Below, piece after piece: positions 11,857 through 52,241 of a stretch of DNA of 64,000 nt. The stretch comes from Opisthocomus hoazin (Eukaryota; Chordata; Aves; Opisthocomiformes; Opisthocomidae): NCBI RefSeq assembly GCF_030867145.1, contig NC_134428.1:806001-870000 (forward strand), read 5' to 3'. The first letter of the stretch is position 1; every line of letters begins with the position of its first letter. The translations under genes and the position numbers were made by a program. The notes beneath the pieces are model-generated. The model was not told the DNA's origin and searched no databases. It worked only from the letters and a program-made list of their open reading frames with translations.

Positions 11857-14180
11857 TCTCAGAAGCAACTACATCAACCTGTCCAAAACCATTTTGTTCC
11901 ATTGTTCCTCATAAGACAAACATCACTGAAAAATAATACAGAATACCAGAGATTAAAAATCACTGTGCTCAATTAGTCAAAACTTTCCAGTGATTGAGAG
12001 AGTAGTTCCTTGAAACTTGTTGACTATGCTAGCTTTACTCATTGCATGGGAAAACTTGGAAGGTATTACTTGAAGAGCTGTTTACAAAGAAGATTACTCT
12101 GAGAATTAGCTAATGGATAACTCGGTTTCCTTTTTGCCAAGATACCATCGATGTGCAACACAAACTGGGTGTACTTTGGACTGCTACAAGTGGAAGAACA
12201 CACTTTGACTCTTAATGAACAATCCCATTTCTACCCAGGCCAGAGTCTCCACATACAAGACAAACGTGAAGACTGACAAGCAGGAATAAAAGACCTCAGG
12301 TGCCAATACAGTCTCCCTTTTACTACAGTGTTTACATTAACATAATTAATGACTTCAAGCAATATAATAATATAATAAAAGCAGTCTTGCTTGTTTCTAG
12401 ATGTGTATTAAAATATGCTCAATGCTAAAACTATTCTAGCAGATAAGAGAAGCAAGAAGAGTAGTACAGCAAAATATACATTTATGTTTTAAAACAATAC
12501 CGTTTGTTCTAACTGTCATCAGAGCTTGGGAACGCATTATTAGTTGTGCCTTTAAAATTGCACAAAATCTTTTCTGCCAAATCATAGAAACAAAGTTTAT
12601 CAAAATTTAAAGGAGGAAAATCTACTCTGACTCATCCAGTGACGAGAAAATAGTAGAATAAATACAGTCCAGATGTCGACTGTCTAGAAGGGCAGCACAC
12701 ATTGGAAGAGTCCAGTAATCAACAGGATTTTCTGGCATACGTACCAGTAAAGCTTCATACAGCACAGGAAGGTCGAAAGCTTGCAATACATTCCTTTTGC
12801 TAAAAAGCCTTTAAATCTAATAGTGATTTTCTTTTTTTTCCTCGAGAAAGTCTTTATGCAAGTTCTCATTCAAAAACAACGTTAATGGATATTATCATCC
12901 TAGTTCTCCTCTCCCTGGAGCTTACAAGTATGCCAAATATTTCCTGCAGGACAGAGTGTTAGATAGCTCTGCTGCCATATACTATAAAACAACTAGAAGA
13001 TTTAGGATTAAGTCCTTTTCATTTACAGAAATAATGACATCTGCGTACTTTAGTTCTTTCCTAGGAGTGCAAACACACAGATTATAAAAATAAATTAAAA
13101 TCTACCTCTATCAACCTGCCCAAAAAAGGTAAACTTTTAGTAACACTATGTACAATATTTATGGAATGGAGATTGTATCACGAAGCTAAAGATAAACTTT
13201 TTCAAAACCTTGTTTTAATATAACTCAATTAATATGTTACCATAAATTAAACAACCAAAACGCTTGGCTGAGATCCTAGCCTTATTTCAGTCAATGGCAG
13301 CTTTGCTAATGACTTCAGTAAGGTCGTAATTTCACCTGCTTTATTTCAGTCTCAATTCCACTACCAGTAGAAACAAAACCTTACCAGACCGAATTCAAAT
13401 GCTGTATCAACTCCAGCCAGGGGCTACGGCAAACAGCGCATCCAAGCAAGCAAACCGTCCTTAGCAATAGCCTCAAGCTGGAGGTACAAGGTTATTCCAT
13501 CAATTAACTGAAGGATCTCTCCATTACAAACTACGTTACACAGACAGGTCAAGGAAAGTCTAACAGTCGCTGGTAAATTGATGCAGTATCTAGAATTAAA
13601 GCTTTTTTCCCTAGAGCAGCAAAAGCTTCTGCTCTGAAGCAGCTTCAAACACATTTAAAATACAAAAAGCTCAGCTGGCATAAGCACTTTGAAGTTTCTA
13701 CATGGTTTTAAATTCATTGCGTGTAAAGTCATAGAGTCCTTTCCAATAAAGGAAAGTACTTTTCAGGCAAATTTATCTCAGCTACACTTTGGTTAGCAAA
13801 AATTAGTGACTGACTTCTCAACCAGCTGCAATTTCCCCCCCAAGCAACTTGAGCCCAGATCTTGCACAGAAGTAAAAGGTATTTCCTCTGCTGAACAGAT
13901 CGCCATCGAGAAAACAAGTAAAGCAAACATAGCGGGAGAGGACTCGCAGGTCATAAAGCAAATCAGCAACACGCAGGAACGGAAGCCAGTCTTCTGACTT
14001 CCAGGAGAACAGCATGCTCTTCCCATGCAGCCCACTTCTAGTGGCAGTTTTTATTCCACGAACAGGTCAAATGCCTGCCTGGGAAAGACGCTGTTCTAAA
14101 GGAAAACGGTAGCAAAACAGTTGCTTTTCTTATTGTCAGGCAGGTTTGAACATCTGCACATCTTCTTGTGACAGCTACAG

Positions 14181-14582
14181 TGTTTTGGTTTTGGTTGCCG
14201 CCTGCAACAAAAGCGCCACGTGGCCGACCCTCCCCCCCGCCGCGGTGCGGAGGAGAATGGAAAGAAAACAGGCAGAAAACCGGTGGGTCGGGATAAGGGC
14301 AGTTTAACAGAACAACAAACAGATGGAACAGGAACAACAACGATACAGATAAGGAGAAAACACGACAAAAAACAGACAGCTGCTCTCTCGGACCGGCGCC
14401 GCACGCTCCCGAGCCACGAGAGGGTTCTAGCCGAGCCGCCCCCCCAGCGGAACCCAGCGTGACGTCACAGGGTATGGAATACCGGGCTCTGTTCGGCCAG
14501 GTGGGGTCAGCCCTCACCCCCCGGCTGTGCCCCTTCCTGGAGTCCGGTGAAAATTAACCCTGTCCTGGCCGAACCCAGGACA
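14181..14582 (-). mobile_element. Solo LTR, avian ERV (ERVL-like), ancestral copy
   Basis: A 402-bp element begins TGTTTTGG and ends CCCAGGACA, flanked on both sides by the 5-bp direct repeat TACAG (14176-14180 and 14583-14587). No internal retroviral sequence is present, so it is a solo LTR. Its architecture matches, as I recall it, a common avian ERVL-type LTR in antisense: a GCCACGTGGCC-like start, a TTTAACAGAACA stretch, a CRE TGACGTCA followed by CAGGGTATGGAA, a GGCCAGGTGGGGTCAGC segment, and the end AAAATTAACCCTGTCCTGGCC. The LTR sense strand should be minus. It differs in many places from the 15 later copies and is the only one with a matching target duplication. Confidence 0.82.
14460..14467. 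promoter_or_regulatory. Palindromic CRE (TGACGTCA) in the solo LTR
   Basis: This is the perfect CREB/ATF consensus site. The same site is kept in LTR copies at 15307, 20168, 25034, 29862, 32548, 45310 and 49234. It is changed to TGATGTCA in the other eight copies, a CpG-decay type substitution. In this LTR family the site lies upstream of the core promoter, so any transcription would run leftwards. Confidence 0.7.
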
Positions 14583-14744
14583 TACAGCATTCAGCACTGG
14601 CAGGACAAGGCAACACCACCACCTCTTCCTGAACTGGTAAATGAGTTTCTGGATTTTAGGGAAGTCTAACTAGTTTGAAATTCCTTACTGAAATCGCACT
14701 GCGAGAACTGGCACCCTTCCACCACCACCCAGCTAGCCGTTAAT
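14583..14744. repeat. Spacer U (162 bp), right flank of the solo LTR
   Basis: This is unique-looking sequence beginning TACAGCATTCAGCACTGG and ending CCGTTAAT. Further copies at 19444-19604, 24310-24471, 29138-29299, 44589-44750 and 48510-48671 each follow a full-length LTR. No gene or RNA is recognised in it. Confidence 0.9.
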
Positions 14745-15008
14745 GTCACTAGCAGATCAGGGGCTCCGCAGAACGTGCAGTGTAGTGCTGCGAGTCACGT
14801 AGACAGAAGGACACAAAATGACACATGCAAAGAAAGCTTTAAAATTCAAAGGCAGACTTCTCTTCCTCTTGCTACCTTTGCACAAAGTCTACTGCAAGCT
14901 AACAATATTTGCAAAGATAAACATCTGAAGTATATTAGGATGGTCAGATGCAGTTAGTGTCATCTGTCCCATTACAGATCGTATCTGTGACTTAAATTGC
15001 TGAAAAAC
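14745..15008. repeat. Spacer R (264 bp), left flank of the array LTRs
   Basis: It starts GTCACTAGCAGATCAGG and ends TTGCTGAAAAAC directly before an LTR start (TGTTTCGG). It recurs before each of the 15 array LTRs, either after spacer U or after the last 191-bp unit. Overlapping open frames of about 60 residues in two phases are conserved only because the DNA is conserved; no coding signal is evident. Confidence 0.9.
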
Positions 15009-15399
15009 TGTTTCGGTTTCGGCTGCCGCCGGCAACAAAAGCGCCACGCAGCCGCCCCTCCCCCTGCCGGCGTGCGGAGGAGGAGAATGAAAAGAAAGAG
15101 GCAGAAACAGGTGGGTCGGGATAAGGGCAGTTTAACAGAACAGCAAACAGAGGGAAAACAGGAACAACAACGATACAAATAAGGAGAAAACACAACAACG
15201 AACCGTACAACCCAGACAGCTGCTCTGCCGAAACAGGACCGGTGCTGCGTCCCCCCAAGCCGCGAGTGCCTTCCCGCTGCCCCGCCCTCCCCACCGGAAC
15301 CCAGCGTGACGTCACAGGGTATGGAACACTGGGCTCTGTTTGGCCAGGTGGGGTCAGCCCCTCCCCCCGGCTGCGCCCCTTCCTGGAGTCCGGTGAAAA
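15009..15399 (-). mobile_element. LTR copy 1, right end replaced by satellite
   Basis: It starts TGTTTCGG and is cut at GGTGAAAA, where the full LTR would read TTAACCCTGTCC; the 10-bp satellite starts at the next base. CRE intact at 15307-15314. A Sp1-like CCCCGCCC box lies near 15280. Confidence 0.85.
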
Positions 15400-17890
15400 T
15401 GAGAACACATCAGAACACATCAGAACCAAACAGAACACAGCAGAACACTACACATGTGAAGACAAGAGAACACAACAGAACAAAACAGAACACTACACAC
15501 TTGAAGAGAACAGAACACAACAGAACACTTCACATGTGAACACATCAGAACACAATAGAACGAAACAGAACACTACACATCAGAACATCACAGAACCCAA
15601 GAGAATACAACAGAACACAACAGAAGACTACGGAACACAGTAGAACACTACACAGGAGAACACATCATAACAAAACAGAACACAACAGAACACTACACTT
15701 GAAAACACAACAGAAGACAACGCAATAGTACACATGAGAACACATCAGAACACAACAGAACACATAAGAACATCACTGCACACAACTCAACACTACATAT
15801 GTGAACAGAACACAGTAGAACACAACAGAACACAACAGAACAGAAAAATACACGAGAACACAAGAGAACACATCAGAACACAACAGAACACTACACATGA
15901 GAACACATGAAAACACATGAGAACACAACAGAACACAACAGAACACTGCACATCAGAATATAACAGAACACATCATAACACAACGAAAAACGACAGAACA
16001 CTAAAAATGAGAACACAGCAGAACACATCAGAACAAAACAGAACAGAACAGAACAGAACAGAACACATTAGAACACAACAGAACACAGCAGAACACAACA
16101 GAACACAAAAGACCACAACAGAACACAAAAGTACACAACAGAACAGAACACTACACATGAGAACACAACAGAACACAACCGAACACAACAGAAAACAACA
16201 GAACAGTACACATGAGAACACATCACAACACAACAGAACACAAAAGATCACTACACATCAGAACACAACAGAACACATAAGAATACAACAGAACACATCA
16301 GAACACAACAGAAGACAACAGAACACTACACATGAGAACACATGAGAACACAAGAGAACACAACAGAACACAACAGAACACTGCACATCAGAATATAACA
16401 GAACACATCAGAGCACAACAAAAAACAACAGAACACTGAAAATGAGAACACAGCAGAACACATCAGAACAAAACAGAACACAACAGAACACAACAGAACA
16501 CAACACGTTAGAACACAACAGAACACAGCAGAACACATCAGAACAAAACAGAACACAACAGAACACAACAGAACACAACAGAACACAACACAATATTACA
16601 CATCACAGAACACTACACGTAAACACAACAGAGCACAAGAGATCACAACACAACACAACAGAACACTACACATGAGAACACAACAGACCACAACAGAACA
16701 CATCAGAACACAGCAGAACACAACAGAAAAGACAACAGAAAACAACAGAACACTACACATGAGAACACATCAGAACACAACAGAACACACAGAACACAAC
16801 AGAACACCACTGAACACAACAGAACACAACAGAACACAACAGAACACAACAGAACACAAAAGAACACTGCACACGACAACACATCAGAACACAAGAGAAC
16901 ACAAGAGAATACAACACATCAGAACACAACAGAACACATCAGAACACATCATAACACAGCAGAACACAACAGAACACTACACAGCACTACAAAATGCTAC
17001 ATGTGAAGTAATCAGAACACAACAGAACACAACAGAACACTATACATGAGTACACATCAGAACACAACAGAACACAAGAGAACACAACAGAACACCACAG
17101 AACACTACACATGAGAACACAACAGAACACAACAGAACACAAAAGAACACTGCACCTGAGAACATATCAGAACACAACAGAACACAACAGAACACAACAG
17201 AACACAAAAGAACACTGCACCTGAGAACACATCAGAACAAAACAGAACACAACACAACACATGAAGACACAACAGAACACAAAAGAACACAATAGAACAC
17301 AACACAATACTACACATGAGAACACATCAGAACACAACAGAACACACAAGAACACAACAGAACATGAGAACACTACACATGTGAACAGAATTGAACACAA
17401 TAGAACACAACAGAACAAAACAGAAGAGAACAGAACAGAACACTACACATGAGAACACAACAGAACACAACAGAACACAAAAGAACACAACAGAACAGTA
17501 CACATGAGAATACATCAGAACATCAGAGAACACAACAGAACACAACATAACACAGCAGAACACATCAGAACACAGGAGAATACTATAAATGAGAACACAA
17601 GAAAACATATCAGAACACAATAGAACACTACACATCAGAACACAATAGAACACATCAGAACAAAACAGAAAAAAACAGAACAGAACCAAAAAGAATACAA
17701 TACATCAGAACACAAAAGAACACATCAGAACACAGCAGAACACAACAGAACACAACAGAACACAACAAAAAACAACAGAACACTAAAAATGAGTACACAT
17801 CAGAACACAGGAGAACACAACACAATATTACAGAACGCAAGAGAATACTAAATGTGAACACAACAGAACAGAAGAAAGAAAGAAAACAGA
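15400..17890. repeat. 10-bp-period satellite, block 1 (long form, 2.49 kb)
   Basis: It is built from GAACACAACA and variants such as GAACACATCA and GAACACTACACATGA. The plus strand is very rich in A and C and almost free of T. The 10-bp period rotates the frame, so all three frames on both strands read as low-complexity polypeptides (QNTTEHNRTQ on plus, CSVVFCCVLL on minus). AGAACA, the steroid-receptor half-site, recurs about every 10 bp. The block ends in GAAAGAAAGAAAACAGAA. Confidence 0.95.
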
Positions 17891-18110
17891 ATTAATTGCT
17901 TGGACAGGTTGCAAAAAAAATATATACATATTCCCTGAGGGATAGGTTCTTAGCTATGTAAATTTTTCCTATGTCCAAACAAATAATTAATTCAAATAGT
18001 GTTACATGTCATTACAGAAATTGTATATCTGATGTTTCCTTCTTCAGTAGTTATCCCTAAACAAACTGTATACTGTGCTAACCACATATGCTTCTAGTAT
18101 TAGAGCATGT
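17891..18110. repeat. Spacer M (220 bp) between satellite and 191-bp repeats
   Basis: This is A/T-rich sequence beginning TTAATTGCTTGGACAGG and ending TATTAGAGCATGT. The other copies are at 22757-22976, 27396-27614, 31308-31526, 33994-34212, 36881-37099, 39959-40177, 43038-43256, 46766-46984 and 50680-50898. No gene is recognised. Confidence 0.9.
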
Positions 18111-18758
18111 AGCTCGCAGCCAGAAGAGGCTAGCCTGGAAAGCTGTTGCTCAGCCTCATCTGCCCATGGCACAGCTCGCATAGAAACACAGAGACGGGGG
18201 CTGCTTGCTTGTCTTCCCACCTCAAACTTCAAACGTAGATTTGGGGGTTCGTGCAGGGGACCTCCGGCAGCCCTGCTCCGAAAATGCGAACGTCTGCAGA
18301 TAGCTCGCAGCCACAAAGAGCTAGCCTGGAAAGCTGTTGCTCAGCCTCATCTGCCCATGGCACTGCTCGCACAGAGGCACAGAGACTGGGGCTGCTTTCT
18401 TGTCTTGCCACCTCAAACTTCAAACGTAGATTAGGTGGTCAATGCATGGGGCCTGCTGGAGCCCTGCTCTGAAAATGTGAACGTCTGCAGATAGCTCGCA
18501 GGCAGAAAGATCTAGCCTGGAAAGCTGTTGCTCAGCCTCATCTGCCCATGGCACTGCTCGCACAGAGGCACAGAGACTGGGGCTGCTTGCTTGTCTTGCC
18601 CCCTCAGACTTCAAACGTAACTTTGAGAGTTCGTGCAGGGGGCCTCCGGCAGCGCTGCTCTGAAAATGTGAACGTCTGCAGATAGCTCGCAGCCAGAAAG
18701 AGCTAGCCTGGAAAGCTGTTGCTCAGCCTCGTCTGCTCATGGCACTGCTCGCACAGAG
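18111..18758. repeat. 191-bp tandem repeat, array 1 (3.4 units)
   Basis: Units start AGCTCGCAGCC at 18111, 18302, 18493 and 18684, exactly 191 bp apart. Each carries GCCTGGAAAGCTGTTGCTCAG, CCATGGCACTGCTCGCACAG and AATGCGAACGTCTGCAGAT or close variants. The last unit breaks off at GCACAGAG, where spacer R begins. Unit length resembles the roughly 190-bp satellites reported from several bird groups; I claim no sequence match. Confidence 0.93.
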
Positions 18759-19024
18759 CAGTCACTAGCAGATCAGGGGCTCCGCAGAACGTGCAGTGTA
18801 GTGCTGTGAGTCACGTAGACAGAAGGACACAAAATGACACATGCAAAGAAAGCTTTAAAATTCAAAGACAGGCTTCTCTTCCTCTTGCTACCTTTGCACA
18901 AAGTCTACTGCAAGCTAACAATATTTGCAAAGGTAAACATCTGGAGTATATTAGGATGGTCAGATGCAGTTAGTGTCATCTGTCCCATTACAGATCATAT
19001 CTGTGACTTAAATTGCTGAAAAAC

Positions 19025-19443
19025 TGTTTCGGTTTCGGCTGCCGCCTGCAACAAAAGCGCCACGCAGCCGCCCCTCCCCCCCCTGGCGTGCGGAGGAGAA
19101 TGAAAAGAAAGAGGCAGAAACAGGTGGGTCGGGATAAGGGCAGTTTAACAGAACAGCAAACAGAGGTAAAACAGGAACAACAACGATACAAATAAGGAGA
19201 AAACACAACAACGAACCTTACAACCCAGACAGCTGCTCTCCCGAAACAGGACCGGCGCTGCATCCCCCCAAGCCGCGAGTGCCTTCCCGCCGCCCCGCCC
19301 CCCCCCACCGGAACCCAGCGTGATGTCACAGGGTATGGAACACCAGGCTCTGTTTGGCCAGGTGGGGTCAGCCCCCACCCCCCGGCTGTGCCCCTTTCTG
19401 GAGTCCGGTGAAAATTAACCCTGTCCTGGCCGAACCCAGGACA
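19025..19443 (-). mobile_element. Full-length LTR, hybrid flanks (1st)
   Basis: 419 bp, TGTTTCGG to CCCAGGACA. The left flank is spacer R (GAAAAAC) and the right flank is spacer U (TACAG), so there is no target duplication. CRE changed to TGATGTCA. Confidence 0.85.
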
Positions 19444-19869
19444 TACAGCATTCAGCACTGGCAGGACAAGGCAACACCACCACCTCTTCCTGAACTGGTA
19501 AATGAGTTTCTGGATTTTAGGGAAGTCTAACTAGTTTGAAATTCCTTACTGAAATCGCACTGCGAGAACTGGCACCCTTCCACCACCACCCAGCTAGCCG
19601 TTAATGTCACTAGCAGATCAGGGGCTCCGCAGAACGTGCAGTGTAGTGCTGCGAGTCACGTAGACAGAAGGACACAAAATGACACATGCAAAGAAAGCTT
19701 TAAAATTCAAAGGCAGACTTCTCTTCCTCTTGCTACCTTTGCACAAAGTCTACTGCAAGCTAACAATATTTGCAAAGATAAACATCTGGAGTATATTAGG
19801 ATGGTCAGATGCAGTTAGTGTCATCTGTCCCATTACAGATCGTATCTGTGACTTAAATTGCTGAAAAAC

Positions 19870-20260
19870 TGTTTCGGTTTCGGCTGCCGCCGGCAACAAA
19901 AGCGCCACGCAGCCGCCCCTCCCCCTGCCGGCGTGCGGAGGAGGAGAATGAAAAGAAAGAGGCAGAAACAGGTGGGTCGGGATAAGGGCAGTTTAACAGA
20001 ACAGCAAACAGAGGGAAAACAGGAACAACAACGATACAAATAAGGAGAAAACACAACAACCAACCGTACAACCCAGACAGCTGCTCTGCCGAAACAGGAC
20101 CGGTGCTGCGTCCCCCCAAGCCGCGAGTGCCTTCCCGCTGCCCCGCCCTCCCCACCGGAACCCAGCGTGACGTCACAGGGTATGGAACACTGGGCTCTGT
20201 TTGGCCAGGTGGGGTCAGCCCCTCCCCCCGGCTGCGCCCCTTCCTGGAGTCCGGTGAAAA
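19870..20260 (-). mobile_element. LTR copy 2, fused to satellite
   Basis: 391 bp, truncated at GGTGAAAA like copy 1 and nearly identical to it. CRE intact at 20168-20175. Confidence 0.85.
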
Positions 20261-22756
20261 TGAGAACACATCAGAACACATCAGAACCAAACAGAACACA
20301 GCAGAACACTACACATGTGAAGACAAGAGAACACAACAGAACAAAACAGAACACTACACACTTGAAGAGAACAGAACACAACAGAACACTTCACATGTGA
20401 ACACATCAGAACACAATAGAACGAAACAGAACACTACACATCAGAACATCACAGAACCCAAGAGAATACAACAGAACACAACAGAAGACTACGGAACACA
20501 GTAGAACACTACACAGGAGAACACATCATAACAAAACAGAACACAACAGAACACTACACTTGAAAACACAACAGAAGACAACGCAATAGTACACATGAGA
20601 ACACATCAGAACACAACAGAACACATAAGAACATCACTGCACACAACTCAACACTACATATGTGAACAGAACACAGTAGAACACAACAGAACACAACAGA
20701 ACAGAAAAATACACGAGAACACAAGAGAACACATCAGAACACAACAGAACACTACACATGAGAACACATGAAAACACATGAGAACACAACAGAACACAAC
20801 AGAACACTGCACATCAGAATATAACAGAACACATCATAACACAACGAAAAACGACAGAACACTAAAAATGAGAACACAGCAGAACACATCAGAACAAAAC
20901 AGAACAGAACAGAACAGAACAGAACAGAACACATTAGAACACAACAGAACGCAGCAGAACACAACAGAACACAAAAGACCACAACAGAACACAAAAGTAC
21001 ACAACAGAACAGAACACTACACATGAGAACACAACAGAACACAACCGAACACAACAGAAAACAACAGAACAGTACACATGAGAACACATCACAACACAAC
21101 AGAACACAAAAGATCACTACACATCAGAACACAACAGAACACATAAGAATACAACAGAACACATCAGAACACAACAGAAGACAACAGAACACTACACATG
21201 AGAACACATGAGAACACAAGAGAACACAACAGAACACAACAGAACACTGCACATCAGAATATAACAGAACACATCAGAGCACAACAAAAAACAACAGAAC
21301 ACTGAAAATGAGAACACAGCAGAACACATCAGAACAAAACAGAACACAACAGAACACAACAGAACACAACACGTTAGAACACAACAGAACACAGCAGAAC
21401 ACATCAGAACAAAACAGAACACAACAGAACACAACAGAACACAACAGAACACAACACAATATTACACATCACAGAACACTACACGTAAACACAACAGAGC
21501 ACAAGAGATCACAACACAACACAACAGAACACTACACATGAGAACACAACAGACCACAACAGAACACATCAGAACACAGCAGAACACAACAGAAAAGACA
21601 ACAGAAAACAACAGAACACTACACATGAGAACACATCAGAACACAACAGAACACACAGAACACAACAGAACACCACTGAACACAACAGAACACAACAGAA
21701 CACAACAGAACACAACAGAACACAAAAGAACACTGCACACGACAACACATCAGAACACAAGAGAACACAAGAGAATACAACACATCAGAACACAACAGAA
21801 CACATCAGAACACATCATAACACAGCAGAACACAACAGAACACTACACAGCACTACAAAATGCTACATGTGAAGTAATCAGAACACAACAGAACACAACA
21901 GAACACTATACATGAGTACACATCAGAACACAACAGAACACAAGAGAACACAACAGAACACCACAGAACACTACACATGAGAACACAACAGAACACAACA
22001 GAACACAAAAGAACACTGCACCTGAGAACATATCAGAACACAACAGAACACAACAGAACACAACAGAACACAAAAGAACACTGCACCTGAGAACACATCA
22101 GAACAAAACAGAACACAACACAACACATGAAGACACAACAGAACACAAAAGAACACAATAGAACACAACACAATACTACACATGAGAACACATCAGAACA
22201 CAACAGAACACACAAGAACACAACAGAACATGAGAACACTACACATGTGAACAGAATTGAACACAATAGAACACAACAGAACAAAACAGAAGAGAACAGA
22301 ACAGAACACTACACATGAGAACACAACAGAACACAACAGAACACAAAAGAACACAACAGAACAGTACACATGAGAATACATCAGAACATCAGAGAACACA
22401 ACAGAACACAACATAACACAGCAGAACACATCAGAACACAGGAGAATACTATAAATGAGAACACAAGAAAACATATCAGAACACAATAGAACACTACACA
22501 TCAGAACACAATAGAACACATCAGAACAAAACAGAAAAAAACAGAACAGAACCAAAAAGAATACAATACATCAGAACACAAAAGAACACATCAGAACACA
22601 GCAGAACACAACAGAACACAACAGAACACAACAAAAAACAACAGAACACTAAAAATGAGTACACATCAGAACACAGGAGAACACAACACAATATTACAGA
22701 ACGCAAGAGAATACTAAATGTGAACACAACAGAACAGAAGAAAGAAAGAAAACAGA
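20261..22756. repeat. 10-bp-period satellite, block 2 (long form, 2.50 kb)
   Basis: Nearly identical to block 1. It is 5 bp longer, through one extra AGAAC in the CAGAACAGAACAGAACA run near 20905. Confidence 0.95.
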
Positions 22757-22976
22757 ACTAATTGCTTGGACAGGTTGCAAAAAAAATATATACATATTCC
22801 CTGAGGGATAGGTTCTTAGCTATGTAAACTTTTCCTATGTCCAAACAAATAATTAATTCAAATAGTGTTACATGTCATTACAGAAATTGTATATCTGATG
22901 TTTCCTTCTTCAGTAGTTATCCCTAAACAAACTGTATACTGTGCTAACCACATATGCTTCTAGTATTAGAGCATGT

Positions 22977-23624
22977 AGCTCGCAGCCAGAAGAGGCTAGC
23001 CTGGAAAGCTGTTGCTCAGCCTCATCTGCTCATGGCACAGCTCGCATAGAAACACAGAGACGGGGGCTGCTTGCTTGTCTTCCCACCTCAAACTTCAAAC
23101 GTAGATTTGGGGGTTCGTGCAGGGGACCTCCGGCAGCCCTGCTCCGAAAATGCGAACGTCTGCAGATAGCTCGCAGCCACAAAGAGCTAGCCTGGAAAGC
23201 TGTTGCTCAGCCTCATCTGCCCATGGCACTGCTCGCACAGAGGCACAGAGACTGGGGCTGCTTTCTTGTCTTGCCACCTCAAACTTCAAACGTAGATTAG
23301 GTGGTCAATGCATGGGGCCTGCTGGAGCCCTGCTCTGAAAATGTGAACGTCTGCAGATAGCTCGCAGGCAGAAAGATCTAGCCTGGAAAGCTGTTGCTCA
23401 GCCTCATCTGCCCATGGCACTGCTCGCACAGAGGCACAGAGACTGGGGCTGCTTGCTTGTCTTGCCCCCTCAGACTTCAAACGTAACTTTGAGAGTTCGT
23501 GCAGGGGGCCTCCGGCAGCGCTGCTATGAAAATGCGAACGTCTGCACATAGCTCGCAGCCAGAAAGAGCTAGCCTGGAAAGCTGTTGCTCAGCCTCGTCT
23601 GCTCATGGCACTGCTCGCACAGAG
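22977..23624. repeat. 191-bp tandem repeat, array 2 (3.4 units)
   Basis: Same unit number as array 1. The last unit reads GCTGCTATGAAAATGCGAACG where array 1 has GCTGCTCTGAAAATGTGAACG. Confidence 0.93.
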
Positions 23625-40177: not shown

Positions 40178-41016
40178 AGCTCGCAGCCAGAAGAGGCTAG
40201 CCTGGAAAGCTGTTGCTCAGCCTCATCTGCTCATGGCACAGCTCGCACAGAGGCACAGAGACGGGGGCTGCTTGCTTGTCTTCCAACCTCAAACTTCAAA
40301 CGTAGATTTGGGGGTTCGTGCAGGGGACCTCCGGCAGCCCTGCTCGCAAAATGCGAACGTCTGAAGATAGCTCGCAGCCACAAAGAGCTAGCCTGGAAAG
40401 CTGTTGCTCAGCCTCATCTGCCCATGGCACTGCTCGCACAGAGGCACAGAGACTGGGGCTGCTTGCTTGTCTTGCCACCTCAAACTTCAAACGTAACTTT
40501 GGGGGTCCGTGCAGGTGGCCTGCTGGAGCCCTGCTCCAAAAATGCGAACGTCTGCAGATAGCTCGCAGCCACAAAGAGCTAGCCTGGAAAGCTGTTGCTC
40601 AGCCTAATCTGCCCATGGCACTGCTCGCACAGAGGCACAGAGACAGGGTCTGCTTTCTTGTCTTGCCACCTCAAACTTCAAACGTAGATTAGGTGGTCAA
40701 TGCATGGGGCCTGCTGGAGCCCTGCTCCGAAAATGCGAACGTCTGCAGATAGCTCGCAGGCAGAAAGATCTAGCCTGGAAAGCTGTTGCTCAGCCTCATC
40801 TGCCCATGGCACTGCTCGCACAGAGGCACAGAGACTGGGACTGCTTGCTTGTCTTGCCCCCTCAGACTTCAAACGTAACTTTGAGAGTTCGTGCAGGGGG
40901 CCTCCGGCAGCGCTGCTATGAAAATGCGAACGTCTGCACATAGCTCGCAGCCAGAAAGAGCTAGCCTGGAAAGCTGTTGCTCAGCCTCGTCTGCTCATGG
41001 CACTGCTCGCACAGAG
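40178..41016. repeat. 191-bp tandem repeat, array 7 (4.4 units)
   Basis: Same unit number and unit order as array 6. Confidence 0.93.
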
Positions 41017-41282
41017 CAGTCACTAGCAGATCAGGGGCTCCGCAGAACGTGCAGTGTAGTGCTGCGAGTCACGTAGACAGAAGGACACAAAATGACACAT
41101 GCAAAGAAAGCTTTAAAATTCAAAGACAGGCTTCTCTTCCTCTTGCTACCTTTGCACAAAGTCTACTGCAAGCTAACAATATTTGCAAAGATAAACATCT
41201 GGAGTATATTAGGATGGTCAGATGCAGTTAGTGTCATCTGTCCCATTACAGATCATATCTGTGACTTAAATTGCTGAAAAAC

Positions 41283-41672
41283 TGTTTCGGTTTCGGCTGT
41301 CGCCGGCAAAAAAAGCGCCACGCGGCCGCCCCTCCCCCCGCCGGCGTGCGGAGGAGAATGAAAAGAAAGAGGCAGAAACAGGTGGGTCGGGATAAGGGCA
41401 GTTTAACAGAACAGCAAACAGAGGGAAAACAGGAACAACAACGATACAAATAAGGAGAAAGCACAACAACGAACCGTACAACCCAGACAGCTGCTCTCCC
41501 GAAACAGGACCGGCGCTGCGTCCCCCCAAGCCGCGAGTGCCTTCCCGCCGCCCCGCCCCCCCCACCGGAACCCAGCGTGATGTCACAGGGTATGGAACAC
41601 CGGGCTCTGTTCGGCCAGGTGGGGTCAGCCCCCCCCCCCCCGGCTGCGCCCCTTCCTGGAGTCCGGTGAAAA
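41283..41672 (-). mobile_element. LTR copy 8, mosaic, fused to satellite
   Basis: 390 bp, same variant set as copies 6 and 7. CRE reads TGATGTCA. Confidence 0.82.
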
Positions 41673-43037
41673 TGAGAACACATCAGAACACATCAGAACC
41701 AAACAGAACACAGCAGAACACTACACATGTGAAGACAAGAGAACACAACAGAACAAAACAGAACACTACACACTTGAAGAGAACAGAACACAACAGAACA
41801 CTTCACATGTGAACACATCAGAACACAATAGAACGAAACAGAACACTACACATCAGAACATCACAGAACCCAAGAGAATACAACAGAACACAACAGAAGA
41901 CTACGGAACACAGTAGAACACTACACATGAGAACACATCAGAACACAACAGAACACACAGAACACAACAGAACACCACTGAACACAACAGAACACAACAG
42001 AACACAACAGAACACAAAAGAACACTGCACACGAGAACACATCAGAACACAAGAGAACACAAGAGAACACAACACTTCAGAACACAACAGAACACATCAG
42101 AACACATCATAACACAGCAGAACACAACAGAACACTACACAGCACTACAAAATGCTACATGTGAAGTAATCAGAACACAACAGAACACAACACAACACTA
42201 TACATGAGTACACATCAGAACACAACAGAACACCACAGAACACTACACATGAGAACACAATAGAACACAACAGAACACAACAGAACACAAAAGAACACTG
42301 CACCTGAGAACACATCAGAACACAACAGAACACAACAGAACACAACAGAACACAAAAGAACACTACACGAGAACACATCAGTACAAAACAGAACACAACA
42401 CAACACATGAAGACACAACAGAACACAAAAGAACACAATAGAACACAACACAATACTACACATGAGAACACATCAGAACACAACAGAACACACAAGAACA
42501 CAACAGAACATGAGAACACTACACATGTGAACAGAATTGAACACAATAGAACACAACAGAACAAAACAGAAGAGAACAGAACAGAACACTACACATGAGA
42601 ACACAACAGAACACAACAGAACACAAAAGAACACAACAGAACAGTACACATGAGAATACATCAGAACATCAGAGAACACAACAGAACACAACATAACACA
42701 GCAGAACACATCAGAACACAGGAGAATACTATAAATGAGAACACAAGAAAACATATCAGAACACAATAGAACACTACACATCAGAACACAATAGAACACA
42801 TCAGAACAAAACAGAAAAAAACAGAACAGAACCAAAAAGAATACAATACATCAGAACACAAAAGAACACATCAGAACACATCAGAACACAACAGAACACA
42901 ACAGAACACAACAAAAAACAACAGAACACTAAAAATGAGTACACATCAGAACACAGGAGAACACAACACAATATTACAGAACGCAAGAGAATACTAAATG
43001 TGAACACAACAGAACAGAAGAAAGAAAGAAAACAGAA
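41673..43037. repeat. 10-bp-period satellite, block 8 (short form)
   Basis: 1365 bp; it keeps CACTACACATGAGAACACAATAG near 42240, where the other short blocks have CACTACACGAG. Confidence 0.95.
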
Positions 43038-43256
43038 TTAATTGCTTGGACAGGTTGCAAAAAAAATATATACATATTCCCTGAGGGATAGGTTCTTAGC
43101 TATGTAAACTTTTCCTATGTCCAAACAAATAATTAATTCAAATAGTGTTACATGTCATTACAGAAATTGTATATCTGATGTTTCCTTCTTCAGTAGTTAT
43201 CCCTAAACAAACTGTATACTGTGCTAACCACATATGCTTCTAGTATTAGAGCATGT

Positions 43257-43904
43257 AGCTCGCAGCCAGAAGAGGCTAGCCTGGAAAGCTGTTGCTCAGC
43301 CTCATCTGCTCATGGCACAGCTCGCACAGAGGCACAGAGACGGGGGCTGCTTGCTTGTCTTCCAACCTCAAACTTCAAACGTAGATTTGGGGGTTCGTGC
43401 AGGGGACCTCCGGCAGCCCTGCTCGCAAAATGCGAACGTCTGAAGATAGCTCGCAGCCACAAAGAGCTAGCCTGGAAAGCTGTTGCTCAGCCTCATCTGC
43501 CCATGGCACTGCTCGCACAGAGGCACAGAGACTGGGGCTGCTTGCTTGTCTTGCCACCTCAAACTTCAAACGTAACTTTGGGGGTCCGTGCAGGTGGCCT
43601 GCTGGAGCCCTGCTCCAAAAATGCGAACGTCTGCAGATAGCTCGCAGCCACAAAGAGCTAGCCTGGAAAGCTGTTGCTCAGCCTCATCTGCCCATGGCAC
43701 TGCTCGCACAGAGGCACAGAGACTGGGACTGCTTGCTTGTCTTGCCCCCTCAGACTTCAAACGTAACTTTGAGAGTTCGTGCAGGGGGCCTCCGGCAGCG
43801 CTGCTATGAAAATGCGAACGTCTGCACATAGCTCGCAGCCAGAAAGAGCTAGCCTGGAAAGCTGTTGCTCAGCCTCGTCTGCTCATGGCACTGCTCGCAC
43901 AGAG
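43257..43904. repeat. 191-bp tandem repeat, array 8 (3.4 units)
   Basis: It lacks the AGACAGGGTCTGC unit present in arrays 6, 7 and 9. Confidence 0.93.
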
Positions 43905-44170
43905 CAGTCACTAGCAGATCAGGGGCTCCGCAGAACGTGCAGTGTAGTGCTGCGAGTCACGTAGACAGAAGGACACAAAATGACACATGCAAAGAAAGCT
44001 TTAAAATTCAAAGACAGGCTTCTCTTCCTCTTGCTACCTTTGCACAAAGTCTACTGCAAGCTAACAATATTTGCAAAGATAAACATCTGGAGTATATTAG
44101 GATGGTCAGATGCAGTTAGTGTCATCTGTCCCATTACAGATCATATCTGTGACTTAAATTGCTGAAAAAC

Positions 44171-44588
44171 TGTTTCGGTTTCGGCTGCCGCCGGCAAAAA
44201 AAGCGCCACGCGGCCGCCCCTCCCCCCGCCGGCGTGCGGAGGAGAATGAAAAGAAAGAGGCAGAAACAGGTGGGTCGGGATAAGGGCAGTTTAACAGAAC
44301 AGCAAACAGAGGGAAAACAGGAACAACAACGATACAAATAAGGAGAAAGCACAACAACGAACCGTACAACCCAGACAGCCGCTCTCCCGAAACAGGACCG
44401 GCGCTGCGTCCCCCCAAGCCGCGAGTGCCTTCCCGCCGCCCCGCCCCCCCCACCGGAACCCAGCGTGATGTCACAGGGTATGGAACACCGGGCTCTGTTC
44501 GGCCAGGTGGGGTCAGCCCCCCCCCCCCGGCTGCGCCCCTTCCTGGAGTCCGGTGAAAATTAACCCTGTCCTGGCCGAACCCAGGACA
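44171..44588 (-). mobile_element. Full-length LTR, hybrid flanks (4th)
   Basis: 418 bp, spacer R on the left, spacer U on the right. CRE reads TGATGTCA. Confidence 0.85.
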
Positions 44589-45014
44589 TACAGCATTCAG
44601 CACTGGCAGGACAAGGCAACACCACCACCTCTTCCTGAACTGGTAAACGAGTTTCTGGATTTTAGGGAAGTCTAACTAGTTTGAAATCCCTTACTGAAAT
44701 CGCACTGCGAGAACTGGCACCCTTCCACCACCACCCAGCTAGCCGTTAATGTCACTAGCAGATCAGGGGCTCCGCAGAACGTGCAGTGTAGTGCTGCGAG
44801 TCACGTAGACAGAAGGACACAAAATGACACATGCAAAGAAAGCTTTAAAATTCAAAGGCAGACTTCTCTTCCTCTTGCTACCTTTGCACAAAGTCTACTG
44901 CAAGCTAACAATATTTGCAAAGATAAACATCTGGAGTATATTAGGATGGTCAGATGCAGTTAGTGTCATCTGTCCCATTACAGATCATATCTGTGACTTA
45001 AATTGCTGAAAAAC

Positions 45015-45402
45015 TGTTTCGGTTTCGGCTGCCGCCGGCAACAAAAGCGCCACGCAGCCGCCCCTCCCCCTGCCGGCGTGCGGAGGAGAATGAAAAGAAA
45101 GAGGCAGAAACAGGTGGGTCGGGATAAGGGCAGTTTAACAGAACAGCAAACAGAGGGAAAACAGGAACAACAACGATACAAATAAGGAGAAAACACAACA
45201 ACGAACCGTACAACCCAGACAGCTGCTCTGCCGAAACAGGACCGGCGCTGCGTCCCCCCAAGCCGCGAGTGCCTTCCCGCCGCCCCGCCCTCCCCACCGG
45301 AACCCAGCGTGACGTCACAGGGTATGGAACACTGGGCTCTGTTTGGCCAGGTGGGGTCAGCCCCTCCCCCCGGCTGCGCCCCTTCCTGGAGTCCGGTGAA
45401 AA
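45015..45402 (-). mobile_element. LTR copy 9, fused to satellite
   Basis: 388 bp, copy-1-like variants but one GAG fewer in GGAGGAGAATG. CRE intact at 45310-45317. Confidence 0.85.
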
Positions 45403-46765
45403 TGAGAACACATCAGAACACATCAGAACCAAACAGAACACAGCAGAACACTACACATGTGAAGACAAGAGAACACAACAGAACAAAACAGAACACTACA
45501 CACTTGAAGAGAACAGAACACAACAGAACACTTCACATGTGAACACATCAGAACACAATAGAACGAAACAGAACACTACACATCAGAACATCACAGAACC
45601 CAAGAGAATACAACAGAACACAACAGAAGACTACGGAACACAGTAGAACACTACACATGAGAACACATCAGAACACAACAGAACACACAGAACACAACAG
45701 AACACCACTGAACACAACAGAACACAACAGAACACAACAGAACACAAAAGAACACTGCACACGAGAACACATCAGAACACAAGAGAACACAAGAGAACAC
45801 AACACTTCAGAACACAACAGAACACATCAGAACACATCATAACACAGCAAAACACAACAGAACACTACACAGCACTACAAAATGCTACATGTGAAGTAAT
45901 CAGAACACAACAGAACACAACAGAACACTATACATGAGTACACATCAGAACACAACAGAACACCACAGAACACTACACGAGAACACAATAGAACACAACA
46001 GAACACAACAGAACACAAAAGAACACTGCACCTGAGAACACATCAGAACACAACAGAACACAACAGAACACAACAGAACACAAAAGAACACTACACGAGA
46101 ACACATCAGTACAAAACAGAACACAACACAACACATGAAGACACAACAGAACACAAAAGAACACAATAGAACACAACACAATACTACACATGAGAACACA
46201 TCAGAACACAACAGAACACACAAGAACACAACAGAACATGAGAACACTACACATGTGAACAGAATTGAACACAATAGAACACAACAGAACAAAACAGAAG
46301 AGAACAGAACAGAACACTACACATGAGAACACAACAGAACACAACAGAACACAAAAGAACACAACAGAACAGTACACATGAGAATACATCAGAACATCAG
46401 AGAACACAACAGAACACAACATAACACAGCAGAACACATCAGAACACAGGAGAATACTATAAATGAGAACACAAGAAAACATATCAGAACACAATAGAAC
46501 ACTACACATCAGAACACAATACAACACATCAGAACAAAACAGAAAAAAACAGAACAGAACCAAAAAGAATACAATACATCAGAACACAAAAGAACACATC
46601 AGAACACAGCAGAACACAACAGAACACAACAGAACACAACAAAAAACAACAGAACACTAAAAATGAGTACACATCAGAACACAGGAGAACACAACACAAT
46701 ATTACAGAACGCAAGAGAATACTAAATGTGAACACAACAGAACAGAAGAAAGAAAGAAAACAGAA
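45403..46765. repeat. 10-bp-period satellite, block 9 (short form)
   Basis: 1363 bp; private changes include AACACAGCAAAACAC near 45845. Confidence 0.95.
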
Positions 46766-46984
46766 TTAATTGCTTGGACAGGTTGCAAAAAAAATATATA
46801 CATATTCCCTGAGGGATAGGTTCTTAGCTATGTAAACTTTTCCTATGTTCAAACAAATAATTAATTCAAATAGTGTTACATGTCATTACAGAAATTGTAT
46901 ATCTGATGTTTCCTTCTTCAGTAGTTATCCCTAAACAAACTGTATACTGTGCTAACCACATATGCTTCTAGTATTAGAGCATGT

Positions 46985-47823
46985 AGCTCGCAGCCAGAAG
47001 AGGCTAGCCTGGAAAGCTGTTGCTCAGCCTCATCTGCTCATGGCACAGCTCGCACAGAGGCACAGAGACGGGGGCTGCTTGCTTGTCTTCCAACCTCAAA
47101 CTTCAAACGTAGATTTGGGGGTTCGTGCAGGGGACCTCCGGCAGCCCTGCTCGCAAAATGCGAACGTCTGAAGATAGCTCGCAGCCACAAAGAGCTAGCC
47201 TGGAAAGCTGTTGCTCAGCCTCATCTGCCCATGGCACTGCTCGCACAGAGGCACAGAGACTGGGGCTGCTTGCTTGTCTTGCCACCTCAAACTTCAAACG
47301 TAACTTTGGGGGTCCGTGCAGGTGGCCTGCTGGAGCCCTGCTCCAAAAATGCGAACGTCTGCAGATAGCTCGCAGCCACAAAGAGCTAGCCTGGAAAGCT
47401 GTTGCTCAGCCTAATCTGCCCATGGCACTGCTCGCACAGAGGCACAGAGACAGGGTCTGCTTTCTTGTCTTGCCACCTCAAACTTCAAACGTAGATTAGG
47501 TGGTCAATGCATGGGGCCTGCTGGAGCCCTGCTCCGAAAATGCGAACGTCTGCAGATAGCTCGCAGGCAGAAAGATCTAGCCTGGAAAGCTGTTGCTCAG
47601 CCTCATCTGCCCATGGCACTGCTCGCACAGAGGCACAGAGACTGGGACTGCTTGCTTGTCTTGCCCCCTCAGACTTCAAACGTAACTTTGAGAGTTCGTG
47701 CAGGGGGCCTCCGGCAGCGCTGCTATGAAAATGCGAACGTCTGCACATAGCTCGCAGCCAGAAAGAGCTAGCCTGGAAAGCTGTTGCTCAGCCTCGTCTG
47801 CTCATGGCACTGCTCGCACAGAG
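46985..47823. repeat. 191-bp tandem repeat, array 9 (4.4 units)
   Basis: Same unit order as arrays 6 and 7. Confidence 0.93.
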
Positions 47824-48089
47824 CAGTCACTAGCAGATCAGGGGCTCCGCAGAACGTGCAGTGTAGTGCTGCGAGTCACGTAGACAGAAGGACACAAAAT
47901 GACACATGCAAAGAAAGCTTTAAAATTCAAAGACAGGCTTCTCTTCCTCTTGCTACCTTTGCACAAAGTCTACTGCAAGCTAACAATATTTGCAAAGATA
48001 AACATCTGGAGTATATTAGGATGGTCAGATGCAGTTAGTGTCATCTGTCCCATTACAGATCATATCTGTGACTTAAATTGCTGAAAAAC

Positions 48090-48509
48090 TGTTTCGGTTT
48101 CGGCTGTCGCCGGCAACAAAAGCGCCACGCGGCCGCCCCTCCCCCCGCCGGCGTGCGGAGGAGAATGAAAAGAAAGAGGCAGAAACAGGTGGGTCGGGAT
48201 AAGGGCAGTTTAACAGAACAGCAAACAGAGGGAAAACAGGAACAACAACGATACAAATAAGGAGAAAGCACAACAACGAACCGTACAACCCAGACAGCTG
48301 CTCTCCCGAAACAGGACCGGCGCTGCGTCCCCCCAAGCCGCGAGTGCCTTCCCGCCGCCCCGCCCCCCCCCACCGGAACCCAGCGTGATGTCACAGGGTA
48401 TGGAACACCGGGCTCTGTTCGGCCAGGTGGGGTCAGCCCCCCCCCCCCCGGCTGCCCCCCTTCCTGGAGTCCGGTGAAAATTAACCCTGTCCTGGCCGAA
48501 CCCAGGACA
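48090..48509 (-). mobile_element. Full-length LTR, hybrid flanks (5th)
   Basis: 420 bp, GTCGCC and TGATGTCA variants; long C runs near 48364 and 48440. Confidence 0.85.
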
Positions 48510-48935
48510 TACAGCATTCAGCACTGGCAGGACAAGGCAACACCACCACCTCTTCCTGAACTGGTAAACGAGTTTCTGGATTTTAGGGAAGTCTAACTAG
48601 TTTGAAATTCCTTACTGAAATCGCACTGCGAGAACTGGCACCCTTCCACCACCACCCAGCTAGCCGTTAATGTCACTAGCAGATCAGGGGCTCCGCAGAA
48701 CGTGCAGTGTAGTGCTGCGAGTCACGTAGAGAGAAGGACACAAAATGACACATGCAAAGAAAGCTTTAAAATTCAAAGGCAGACTTCTCTTCCTCTTGCT
48801 ACCTTTGCACAAAGTCTACTGCAAGCTAACAATATTTGCAAAGATAAACATCTGGAGTATATTAGGATGGTCAGATGCAGTTAGTGTCATCTGTCCCATT
48901 ACAGATCATATCTGTGACTTAAATTGCTGAAAAAC

Positions 48936-49326
48936 TGTTTCGGTTTCGGCTGCCGCCGGCAACAAAAGCGCCACGCAGCCGCCCCTCCCCCTGCCGGCGT
49001 GCGGAGGAGGAGAATGAAAAGAAAGAGGCAGAAACAGGTGGGTCGGGATAAGGGCAGTTTAACAGAACAGCAAACAGAGGGAAAACAGGAACAACAACGA
49101 TACAAATAAGGAGAAAACACAACAACGAACCGTACAACCCAGACAGCTGCTCTGCCGAAACAGGACCGGTGCTGCGTCCCCCCAAGCCGCGAGTGCCTTC
49201 CCGCCGCCCCGCCCTCCCCACCGGAACCCAGCGTGACGTCACAGGGTATGGAACACTGGGCTCTGTTTGGCCAGGTGGGGTCAGCCCCTCCCCCCGGCTG
49301 CGCCCCTTCCTGGAGTCCGGTGAAAA
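48936..49326 (-). mobile_element. LTR copy 10, fused to satellite
   Basis: 391 bp, copy-1-like variants. CRE intact at 49234-49241. Last LTR of the array. Confidence 0.85.
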
Positions 49327-50679
49327 TGAGAACACATCAGAACCAAACAGAACACAGCAGAACACTACACATGTGAAGACAAGAGAACACAACAGAACAA
49401 AACAGAACACTACACACTTGAAGAGAACAGAACACAACAGAACACTTCACATGTGAACACATCAGAACACAATAGAACGAAACAGAACACTACACATCAG
49501 AACGTCACAGAACCCAAGAGAATACAACAGAACACAACAGAAGACTACGGAACACAGTAGAACACTACACATGAGAACACATCAGAACACAACAGAACAC
49601 ACAGAACACAACAGAACACCACTGAACACAACAGAACACAACAGAACACAACAGAACACAAAAGAACACTGCACACGAGAACACATCAGAACACAAGAGA
49701 ACACAAGAGAACACAACACTTCAGAACACAACAGAACACATCAGAACACATCATAACACAGCAGAACACAACAGAACACTACACAGCACTACAAAATGCT
49801 ACATGTGAAGTAATCAGAACACAACAGAACACAACAGAACACTATACATGAGTACACATCAGAACACAACAGAACACCACAGAACACTACACGAGAACAC
49901 AATAGAACACAACAGAACACAACAGAACACAAAAGAACACTGCACCTGAGAACACATCAGAACACAACAGAACACAACAGAACACAACAGAACACAAAAG
50001 AACACTACACGAGAACACATCAGTACAAAACAGAACACAACACAACACATGAAGACACAACAGAACACAAAAGAACACAATAGAACACAACACAATACTA
50101 CACATGAGAACACATCAGAACACAACAGAACACACAAGAACACAACAGAACATGAGAACACTACACATGTGAACAGAATTGAACACAATAGAACACAACA
50201 GAACAAAACAGAAGAGAACAGAACAGAACACTACACATGAGAACACAACAGAACACAACAGAACACAAAAGAACACAACAGAACAGTACACATGAGAATA
50301 CATCAGAACATCAGAGAACACAACAGAACACAACATAACACAGCAGAACACATCAGAACACAGGAGAATACTATAAATGAGAACACAAGAAAACATATCA
50401 GAACACAATAGAACACTACACATCAGAACACAATAGAACACATCAGAACAAAACAGAAAAAAACAGAACAGAACCAAAAAGAATACAATACATCAGAACA
50501 CAAAAGAACACATCAGAACACAGCAGAACACAACAGAACACAACAGAACACAACAAAAAACAACAGAACACTAAAAATGAGTACACATCAGAACACAGGA
50601 GAACACAACACAATATTACAGAACGCAAGAGAATACTAAATGTGAACACAACAGAACAGAAGAAAGAAAGAAAACAGAA
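49327..50679. repeat. 10-bp-period satellite, block 10 (short form)
   Basis: 1353 bp, the same form as blocks 4 and 5. Last satellite block. Confidence 0.95.
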
Positions 50680-50898
50680 TTAATTGCTTGGACAGGTTGC
50701 AAAAAAAATATATACATATTCCCTGAGGGATAGGTTCTTAGCTATGTAAACTTTTCCTATGTCCAAACAAATAATTAATTCAAATAGTGTTACATGTCAT
50801 TACAGAAATTGTATATCTGATGTTTCCTTCTTCAGTAGTTATCCCTAAACAAACTGTATACTGTGCTAACCACATATGCTTCTAGTATTAGAGCATGT

Positions 50899-52241
50899 AG
50901 CTCGCAGCCAGAAGAGGCTAGCCTGGAAAGCTGTTGCTCAGCCTCATCTGCTCATGGCACAGCTCGCACAGAGGCACAGAGACGGGGGCAGCTTGCTTGT
51001 CTTCCCACCTCAAACTTCAAACGTAGATTTGGGGGTTCGTGCAGGGGACCTCCGGCAGCCCTGCTCGCAAAATGCGAACGTCTGAAGATAGCTCGCAGCC
51101 ACAAAGAGCTAGCCTGGAAAGCTGTTGCTCAGCCTCATCTGCCCATGGCACTACTCGCACATAGGCACAGAGACTGGGGCTGCTTGCTTGTCTTGCCACC
51201 TCAAACTTCAAACATAGCTTAGGTGGTCCGTGCAAGTAGCCTCTAGCAGCCCTGCTCCGAAAATGCGAACGTCTGCAGATAGCTCGCAGCCACAAAGAGC
51301 TAGCCTGGAAAGCTGTTACTCAGCCTCATCTGTCCATGGCACTGCTCGCACAGAGGCACAGAGACTGGGGGTGCTTGCTTGTTTTGCCACATCAAATGTC
51401 AGACGTATCTTTGGGGGTCCGTGCTGGGGGCCTCCAGCAGCCCTGCTTTGAAAATGCGAACGTCTGCAGATAACTGGCAGGCAGAAGAGTCTAGCCTGGA
51501 AAGCTGTTGCTCAGCCTCATCTGCCCATGGCACTGCTCGCACAGAGGCACAGAGACTGGGGCTGCTTGCTTGTACTGCCACCTAAAACTTCAAACATATC
51601 TGTAGGGGTACATGAAGGGGGCCTCCGCAGCCCTGCTCTGAAAATGCAAACGTCTGCAGATAAGTGGCCGCCAGAATGAGCTAGGCTGGAAAGCTGTTCC
51701 TCAGCCTCATCTGCCCATGGCACTGCTCGCACAGAGGCACAGAGACTGGGGCTGCTTGCTTGTCTTGCCTCCTTAAACTTCAAAAGTAGCTTTGGGTGTT
51801 CGTGATTTGGGCCTCCGGCAGCCCTGCTCCCTAAATGCGAACGTCTGCAGATAGCTCGCAGTCAGAAAGATCTAGCCTGGAAAGCTGTTGCTCAGCCTCA
51901 TCTGCCCATGGCACTGCTCACGCAGAGGCACAGAGACTGGGGCTGCTTCCTTGTACTGCCACCTAAAACTTCAAGCATATCTTTAGTGGTACATGCAGGG
52001 GGCCTCCGCAGCCCTGCTCTGAAATTGCGAACGTCTGCAGATAACTGGCAGCCAGAAAGAGCTAGCCTGGAAAGCTGTTGCTCAGCCTCGTCTGCCCATG
52101 GCACTGCTCGCACAGAGGCACAGAGACTGGGGCTGCTTGCTTGTCTTGCCCCCTCAAAATTCAAACGTTGCTTACGTGGTCCGTGCAGGTGGCCTCTGGC
52201 AGCCCTGCTCTGAAAATGCGAACGTCTGCATGTAGCTCACA
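50899..52241. repeat. 191-bp tandem repeat, terminal array (7 units)
   Basis: 1343 bp. The first two or three units are close to those of the other arrays. Units from about 51230 onwards diverge progressively (for example AACATATCTGTAGGGGTACATG, CGTGATTTGGGCC) and keep the 191-bp spacing only approximately. The last unit fades into unique sequence at AGCTCACAGCTTAACAGG. These look like old edge units outside the amplified and homogenised part. Confidence 0.9.

Follow-up and report, generated by a model that had tools for sequence, protein, structure and literature searches.

The window analysed here, 64,000 nucleotides of the bird Opisthocomus hoazin (NCBI RefSeq assembly GCF_030867145.1, contig NC_134428.1, positions 806,001 to 870,000 of the forward strand, read 5' to 3'), has matches to myosin-10 on both sides of a tandem array. 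This array lies beside a myosin gene, spans positions 14176-52243 of the window (about 38 kb) and consists of ten large repeat units in head-to-tail order. Each unit opens with a truncated copy of an old retroviral long terminal repeat (LTR), followed by a satellite with a 10-bp period and a satellite with a 191-bp monomer. We regard the locus with considerable confidence, on the basis of its sequence organization, as a young composite macrosatellite (a higher-order tandem repeat) that is probably local to this place.

Results

Unit organization and length steps

BLAST searches with unit pieces against the window place the starts of the truncated LTRs at 15009, 19870, 24736, 29564, 32250, 35127, 38205, 41283, 45015 and 48936. 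The resulting unit spacings are 4861, 4866, 4828, 2686, 2877, 3078, 3078, 3732 and 3921 bp, and the last unit measures 3308 bp. All ten LTR-led starts and all nine spacings given in a first-pass annotation of this DNA are exact. Tandem Repeats Finder reports two satellites in every unit, one of 10 bp with the consensus AGAACACAAC (70-71% matches) and one of 191 bp (85-92% matches). The array is thus built like a composite element or macrosatellite, with ten direct units of kilobase size and at least three distinct repeats including a transposable element (the LTR, the 10-bp and the 191-bp repeat). The composite higher-order array that had been proposed is borne out by the unit starts, the step sizes and the monomer positions. 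Chance or low-complexity similarity is ruled out by the repeat calls, the unit matches and a shuffle control, in which a 28-base piece of the 191-bp monomer was found in 39 copies in the window and 0 times in 100 shuffles. A scan of viral contigs with a 28-base piece of the monomer gave no match. At the edges of the array the order of modules is LTR1, U, R, LTR2 (truncated), 10-bp satellite, M (239 bp) and 191-bp satellite. The features of the array are as follows, with the strand given for LTR copies.

14176-14180: left TACAG, one copy of a 5-bp target-site duplication
14181-14582, minus strand: LTR1 at the left edge, an intact solo LTR of 402 bp with TG...CA ends, differing from the 15 other copies at 46-52 of 369-371 aligned bases
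14583-15008: right flank of LTR1, left-edge copy, with the right TACAG (14583-14587), the rest of U (to 14744) and R (14745-15008)
15009-15400, minus strand: unit 1 LTR2, truncated at CCGGTGAAAAT where the 10-bp satellite starts, a junction common to units 1-10
15401-17870: unit 1 10-bp satellite (AGAACACAAC), long class, about 2.47 kb
17871-18109: unit 1 M, a 239-bp single-copy segment with 0-2/239 differences among ten copies
18110-18758: unit 1 191-bp satellite, with monomers A, C and D and a truncated monomer
18759-19024: unit 1 founding junction between 191-bp satellite and R, with the R copy; junction sequence identical in 9/9 internal units
19025-19443, minus strand: unit 1 recombinant LTR (Lc), flanked as LTR2 on the left and as LTR1 on the right (TACAG, U)
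19444-19869: unit 1 U-R copy of the extra module, likewise found in units 2, 3, 8 and 9
19870-24735: unit 2, long satellite, A-C-D, extra module
24736-29563: unit 3, long satellite with extra deletions, A-B-C-D, extra module
29564-32249: unit 4, short satellite, an A/B hybrid and a C/D or B/D hybrid monomer, without the extra module
32250-35126: unit 5, short satellite, A-C-D, without the extra module
35127-38204: unit 6, short satellite, A-B-C-D, without the extra module
38205-41282: unit 7, organised as unit 6
41283-45014: unit 8, short satellite, A-B and a hybrid ending in D, extra module
45015-48935: unit 9, short satellite, A-B-C-D, extra module
48936-52243: unit 10 at the right edge, with truncated LTR, short satellite, M, monomer A and six divergent 191-bp monomers, then outside DNA

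The differences in unit length had been attributed to four quanta, and each of them corresponds to a physical step. The 191-bp quantum is one monomer, and the 10-bp quantum is a single satellite step just after the LTR, which units 4, 5 and 10 lack. Five of the ten units (1, 2, 3, 8 and 9) carry an extra LTR-U-R module, some 845 bp long, which is the quantum of about 0.84 kb. The quantum of about 1.1 kb is a deletion within the 10-bp satellite of units 4-10. Relative to unit 1, the alignment of these units is shifted by 0-10 before the deletion, jumps by 1105 and reaches 1128-1139 after a few small changes. The position of the 1105-bp deletion was taken from a diagonal analysis, since a multiple alignment of short versus long satellites misplaced it (56-68 mismatches). 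Accordingly, the 10-bp satellite measures about 2470 bp in units 1-2, about 2247 bp in unit 3 and 1331-1342 bp in units 4-10, and within this short class the copies that lack the 10-bp step (units 4, 5 and 10) measure 1331 bp, those of units 6-9 1338-1342 bp. The short-class copies differ from each other by 1-5 of about 1331 bases. The motif AGAACA occurs 1128 times in the 16547 bases of 10-bp satellite; inverted hormone-receptor sites were considered and rejected, because despite the many AGAACA motifs AGAACAnnnTGTTCT was found 0 times in the same 16547 bases.

Monomer order in the 191-bp satellite

The monomers of the 191-bp satellite occupy positions A, B, C and D. Units 3, 6, 7 and 9 carry A-B-C-D and units 1, 2 and 5 carry A-C-D, while in unit 8 A-B is followed by a hybrid ending as D, and unit 4 consists of an A/B hybrid and a second hybrid ending as D. 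As in a higher-order repeat, monomers at the same position differ by 0-8/191 and monomers at different positions by 12-27/191, a comparison that leaves out the hybrid first monomer of unit 4 and the edge monomers of unit 10. This first monomer of unit 4 is explained by a single switch between A and B (4 differences from B, 11-16 from A). In the two hybrids ending as D, the second monomer of unit 4 and the third of unit 8, the left part fits C or B. Such in-register hybrids are the product expected of unequal exchange by whole monomers. Unit 10 holds seven 191-bp monomers, of which the second to the seventh have 13-33 differences from all others. Divergence of this kind is expected where an array ends; the left edge holds no 191-bp monomers.

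Junctions and similarity of the modules

The 239 bp of M show 0-2 differences across all ten units, which is far beyond chance. U copies differ by 0-3/190 and R copies by 0-9/264 overall, the LTR classes described below are about 3-5% apart, and satellites within a length class differ by less than 1%. Among whole units, units 6 and 7 differ at 4/3078 bases, and unit 8 differs from unit 6 at 3/2886, gaps aside; distances to unit 10 as a whole are inflated by its unequal monomer number and were not used. Most of the unit has thus been amplified recently, but its homogenisation is uneven. The first-pass annotation had described LTR and satellites as homogenised together as one unit. Homogenisation is, however, incomplete, with three LTR classes, two satellite length classes and edge monomers that have escaped it. 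A comparison of the modules with each other revealed no direct relationship among them, although with the low-complexity filter on this says little about the 10-bp satellite.

At the founding junction a 191-bp monomer is broken after about 75 bp and joined to R, and the sequence of this junction is identical in 9/9 internal units. Nine independent events at one base are implausible, and we therefore deduce one founding tandem duplication. The R copies fall into two groups: the edge copy and the copies beside U (other than the one in unit 2) differ by 0-3/264 among themselves, the junction copies likewise by 0-3/264, and between the groups 2-6/264 differences are found. The junction R copy nearest to the edge copy (3/264) is Rj4, which lies beside the exceptional LTR of unit 5 (see below).

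LTR copies and the extra module

The array contains 16 LTR copies (one at the edge, ten truncated, five recombinant) in a single orientation, which is minus if the TGTCCTGGG end of LTR1 is taken as the 5' end. LTR1 has the structure of a solo LTR, with TG...CA ends, a length of 402 bp and TACAG at both sides; these ends and the perfect 5-bp target-site duplication of the left-edge copy support the identification as an LTR. A 5-bp duplication suggests an ERVL-type element. LTR2 breaks off at CCGGTGAAAAT, where it abuts the 10-bp satellite, and this junction is the same in units 1-10.

All five Lc copies have ...GAAAAAC on the left, as in the flank of LTR2, and TACAG on the right, as in the flank of LTR1. 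These mixed flanks therefore indicate recombination between two LTR insertions. The Lc bodies are LTR2-type at most of 51 diagnostic sites, and in units 1-2 the last two diagnostic sites are LTR1-type. We read this as an exchange that probably took place at the right end of the LTR.

LTR1 differs from the other 15 copies by 12-14%. The latter fall into class alpha (LTR2 of units 1-5, 9 and 10), class beta (LTR2 of units 6-8 and Lc of units 3, 8 and 9, with 0-4 differences within the class) and class gamma (Lc of units 1 and 2). LTRs directly to the right of a junction R are beta or gamma in 8/9 cases, and those to the right of U-R are alpha in 6/6 cases. Gene conversion among LTRs is a topic of PMC4921805, as far as the passages considered here go. 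Loss of the extra module from units 6 and 7, which had been considered, is no longer claimed, because the LTR classes fit equally well with units that never had it.

Flanking DNA

Both edges of the array pass into DNA outside it. In the right flank, minus-strand open reading frames (ORFs) at 63889-63999 and 61981-62211 have their best matches in residues 1893-1929 and 1928-1975 of myosin-10 (9z3w_A, 1976 residues). These C-terminal matches therefore place the 3' end of MYH10 in the right flank, and the two ORFs are apparently its last two coding exons.

The left flank has four minus-strand ORFs that match myosin-10, as follows.

9800-9979, minus strand: residues 172-212, the P-loop exon; best match a nonmuscle myosin heavy chain B chimera, then myosin-10
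9347-9607, minus strand: residues 1372-1456
6442-6771, minus strand: residues 1594-1652
4489-4896, minus strand: residues 1646-1701

The P-loop exon lies about 230 bp upstream of the exon for residues 1372-1456, which comes about 1160 residues later in the protein, and the exons between them are missing. A tandem duplication of 5.74 kb with MYH10-like tail exons (1-3622 versus 5745-9365, 98.4% identity) may extend past the window. Judged from these matches, the left flank is a rearranged, partly duplicated MYH10-like copy on the minus strand. In the Pfam scan 3/10 ORFs of the left flank were myosin tail above the curated cut-off. A literature search for MYH10 together with the germline-restricted chromosome found no paper.

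In the right flank 1/20 ORFs exceeded the Pfam cut-off, a reverse transcriptase at 63398-63934. The segment 62683-63255 recurs at 55019-55585 (87.6%), and a weak piece at 4967-5170 resembles 62683-62888 (69.7%). We take the pieces at 55019-55585, 62683-63934 and 4967-5170 to be parts of CR1-type retrotransposons. The CR1-type reverse transcriptase and the MYH10 exons are in keeping with an amniote. A perfect 17-bp minisatellite of 3.2 copies lies at 11307-11361.

Discussion

Direct repeats exist in the array at three scales (kilobase units, LTRs of about 400 bp and 191-bp monomers), and exchange at these scales would give the main length steps. In the scheme that we propose, an illegitimate event would first have duplicated the segment R-LTR2-satellite-M-191 once, and misaligned exchange between the repeated units would have raised their number. 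The U-R-LTR module of about 0.84 kb would have been added by exchange between the LTRs, which form direct repeats of about 400 bp. The remaining length steps would have come from in-register slippage by whole 191-bp monomers and from partial loss of the 10-bp satellite, and unequal exchange together with gene conversion would have homogenised the interior more than the edges. The founding duplication would have produced two LTR2 lineages, one behind each type of R, and only afterwards would LTR1 have taken part in exchange. We favour this order, without regarding it as proven, because the LTR class follows the left neighbour (8/9 and 6/6) and the R copies agree in part.

Several observations weigh against this scheme. 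The order of founding duplication and LTR exchange is favoured and still unproven, and the LTR2 of unit 5 is of the wrong class (alpha), as the lone exception among the nine LTRs beside a junction R. In units 3, 8 and 9 the Lc copies lack LTR1-type bases at the last diagnostic sites, and therefore the switch point would have to lie further right or conversion has to be invoked. LTR1-type bases are found at 8-10/51 sites in Lc, but the LTR2 copies of units 6-8 likewise have 8 of them and those of units 4 and 9 have 2; as copies without the module share them, these scattered bases are not counted as evidence of exchange. Each of the two hybrid monomers ending as D has one more C/B-type site, for which a single switch does not account. 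The edge monomers of unit 10 match none of B, C and D, and therefore a loss of ancestral monomers must be assumed. The modules are unequally alike (U, R, LTR classes), hence age or homogenisation varies along the unit. Within the extra module of unit 2, the R copy (Ru2, 24472-24735) is unusually divergent, with 3-9/264 differences from all others.

The near identity of units 6 and 7 (4/3078) and of units 8 and 6 (3/2886, gaps aside) might also point to an assembly artefact, in which false duplication or the joining of haplotypes in tandem accounts for part of the unit number and for the near-identical units, the real array being smaller. The 5.74-kb tandem duplication in the left flank, at 98.4% identity, would suit such an artefact as well. 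However, the window is free of N runs, outside DNA is reached at both edges, and the units vary in length class, monomer order, hybrids, LTR class and substitutions, just as recombination would give. We consider an artefact unlikely. A 191-bp monomer in higher-order arrangement and a segmental duplication nearby are also what one would see if the array were a stray block of a centromeric or pericentromeric satellite that is spread across the genome, with the 191-bp and 10-bp repeats as its main components. This origin seems doubtful, if somewhat less so than the artefact, as myosin-10 exons flank both sides and the edges enter DNA that is not part of the array.

A role in gene regulation has also to be weighed. 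If the TGTCCTGGG end of LTR1 is its 5' end, 16/16 LTR copies point leftward, a direction shared by the MYH10-like exons at 0.7-9.9 kb. The LTR copies might then jointly act as promoters or enhancers for leftward transcripts into the MYH10-like fragment, and the array would be kept for regulation. A perfect TGACGTCA palindrome, which we take to be a cAMP response element (CRE), is present in LTR1 and in 7/10 LTR2 copies (class alpha), and lends this idea weak support; yet it is missing by one base from the other 8/16 copies. Moreover, the gene copy on the left is rearranged, and the shared orientation of the LTRs follows from tandem duplication alone. Regulation by the LTRs is in our view highly improbable. 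Further still goes the notion of a lineage-specific cluster of 16 co-oriented LTR promoters selected for driving a rearranged MYH10-like gene with a P-loop exon beside tail exons, in which the 10-bp satellite would be a helically phased spacer, and to this we attach next to no probability. There is no sign of function in the sequence of the array. A Pfam scan of ten ORFs from the left edge and unit 1 gave no match, and an Rfam scan of the window returned no family at gathering score. We return to the composite macrosatellite, which we think is neutral and driven by recombination, probably without a selected function, and persists by recombination.

Composite elements in the human telomere-to-telomere (T2T) annotation are said to have been described by Hoyt et al. 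in 2022. By their definition, they share with the present array tandem units made of several repeats, pieces of transposable elements included. Here, in contrast, the parts are a solo LTR and satellites of 10 and 191 bp, and the founding and LTR-exchange junctions are still readable. A named 191-bp satellite, reportedly present in zebra finch, would speak for the genome-wide satellite considered above; literature searches for the zebra finch satellite names Tgut191A and Tgut716A and for a 191-bp zebra finch satellite found no paper. The consulted part of PMC9186530 names composite transposable-element arrays and places the macrosatellite D4Z4 between FRG1 and FRG2. The first-pass annotation had called such an array unusual for a locus beside conserved genes. 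This is not well supported, because macrosatellites among genes, such as D4Z4, and composite arrays are both already established, as the same part of that source indicates (PMC9186530). D4Z4 and the present array have in common large tandem units that adjoin genes, but the D4Z4 unit holds the gene DUX4, whereas no ORF of the left edge and unit 1 (0/10) had a Pfam match. In birds, crowSat1 is given in the section used of PMC6115840 as a 14-kb satellite of the hooded crow. It resembles the present array, by description alone, as a large tandem unit in a bird genome; however, crowSat1 is there a suspected major component of heterochromatin, whereas the present array of about 38 kb lies between gene exons. 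Tandem repeats tied to LTR elements are also treated, in the portion considered here, in PMC7004042, where retrotransposon-derived satellites of Lathyrus arise as short arrays inside LTR retrotransposons and expand. In the present array, by contrast, the duplication took in two LTR insertions along with two separate satellites. The passages drawn from PMC7757076 and PMC12287470 hold nothing specific to such an array.

The array clearly exemplifies a type of sequence that is already known and is no new kind of system. Since the founding and LTR-exchange junctions and the ancestral module order can all still be read in this compact locus, it allows the birth of a composite satellite to be traced step by step. 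Target-site duplications mark the exchange between two LTR insertions, and the locus is usable as a test case for LTRs that seed and reshape tandem arrays.

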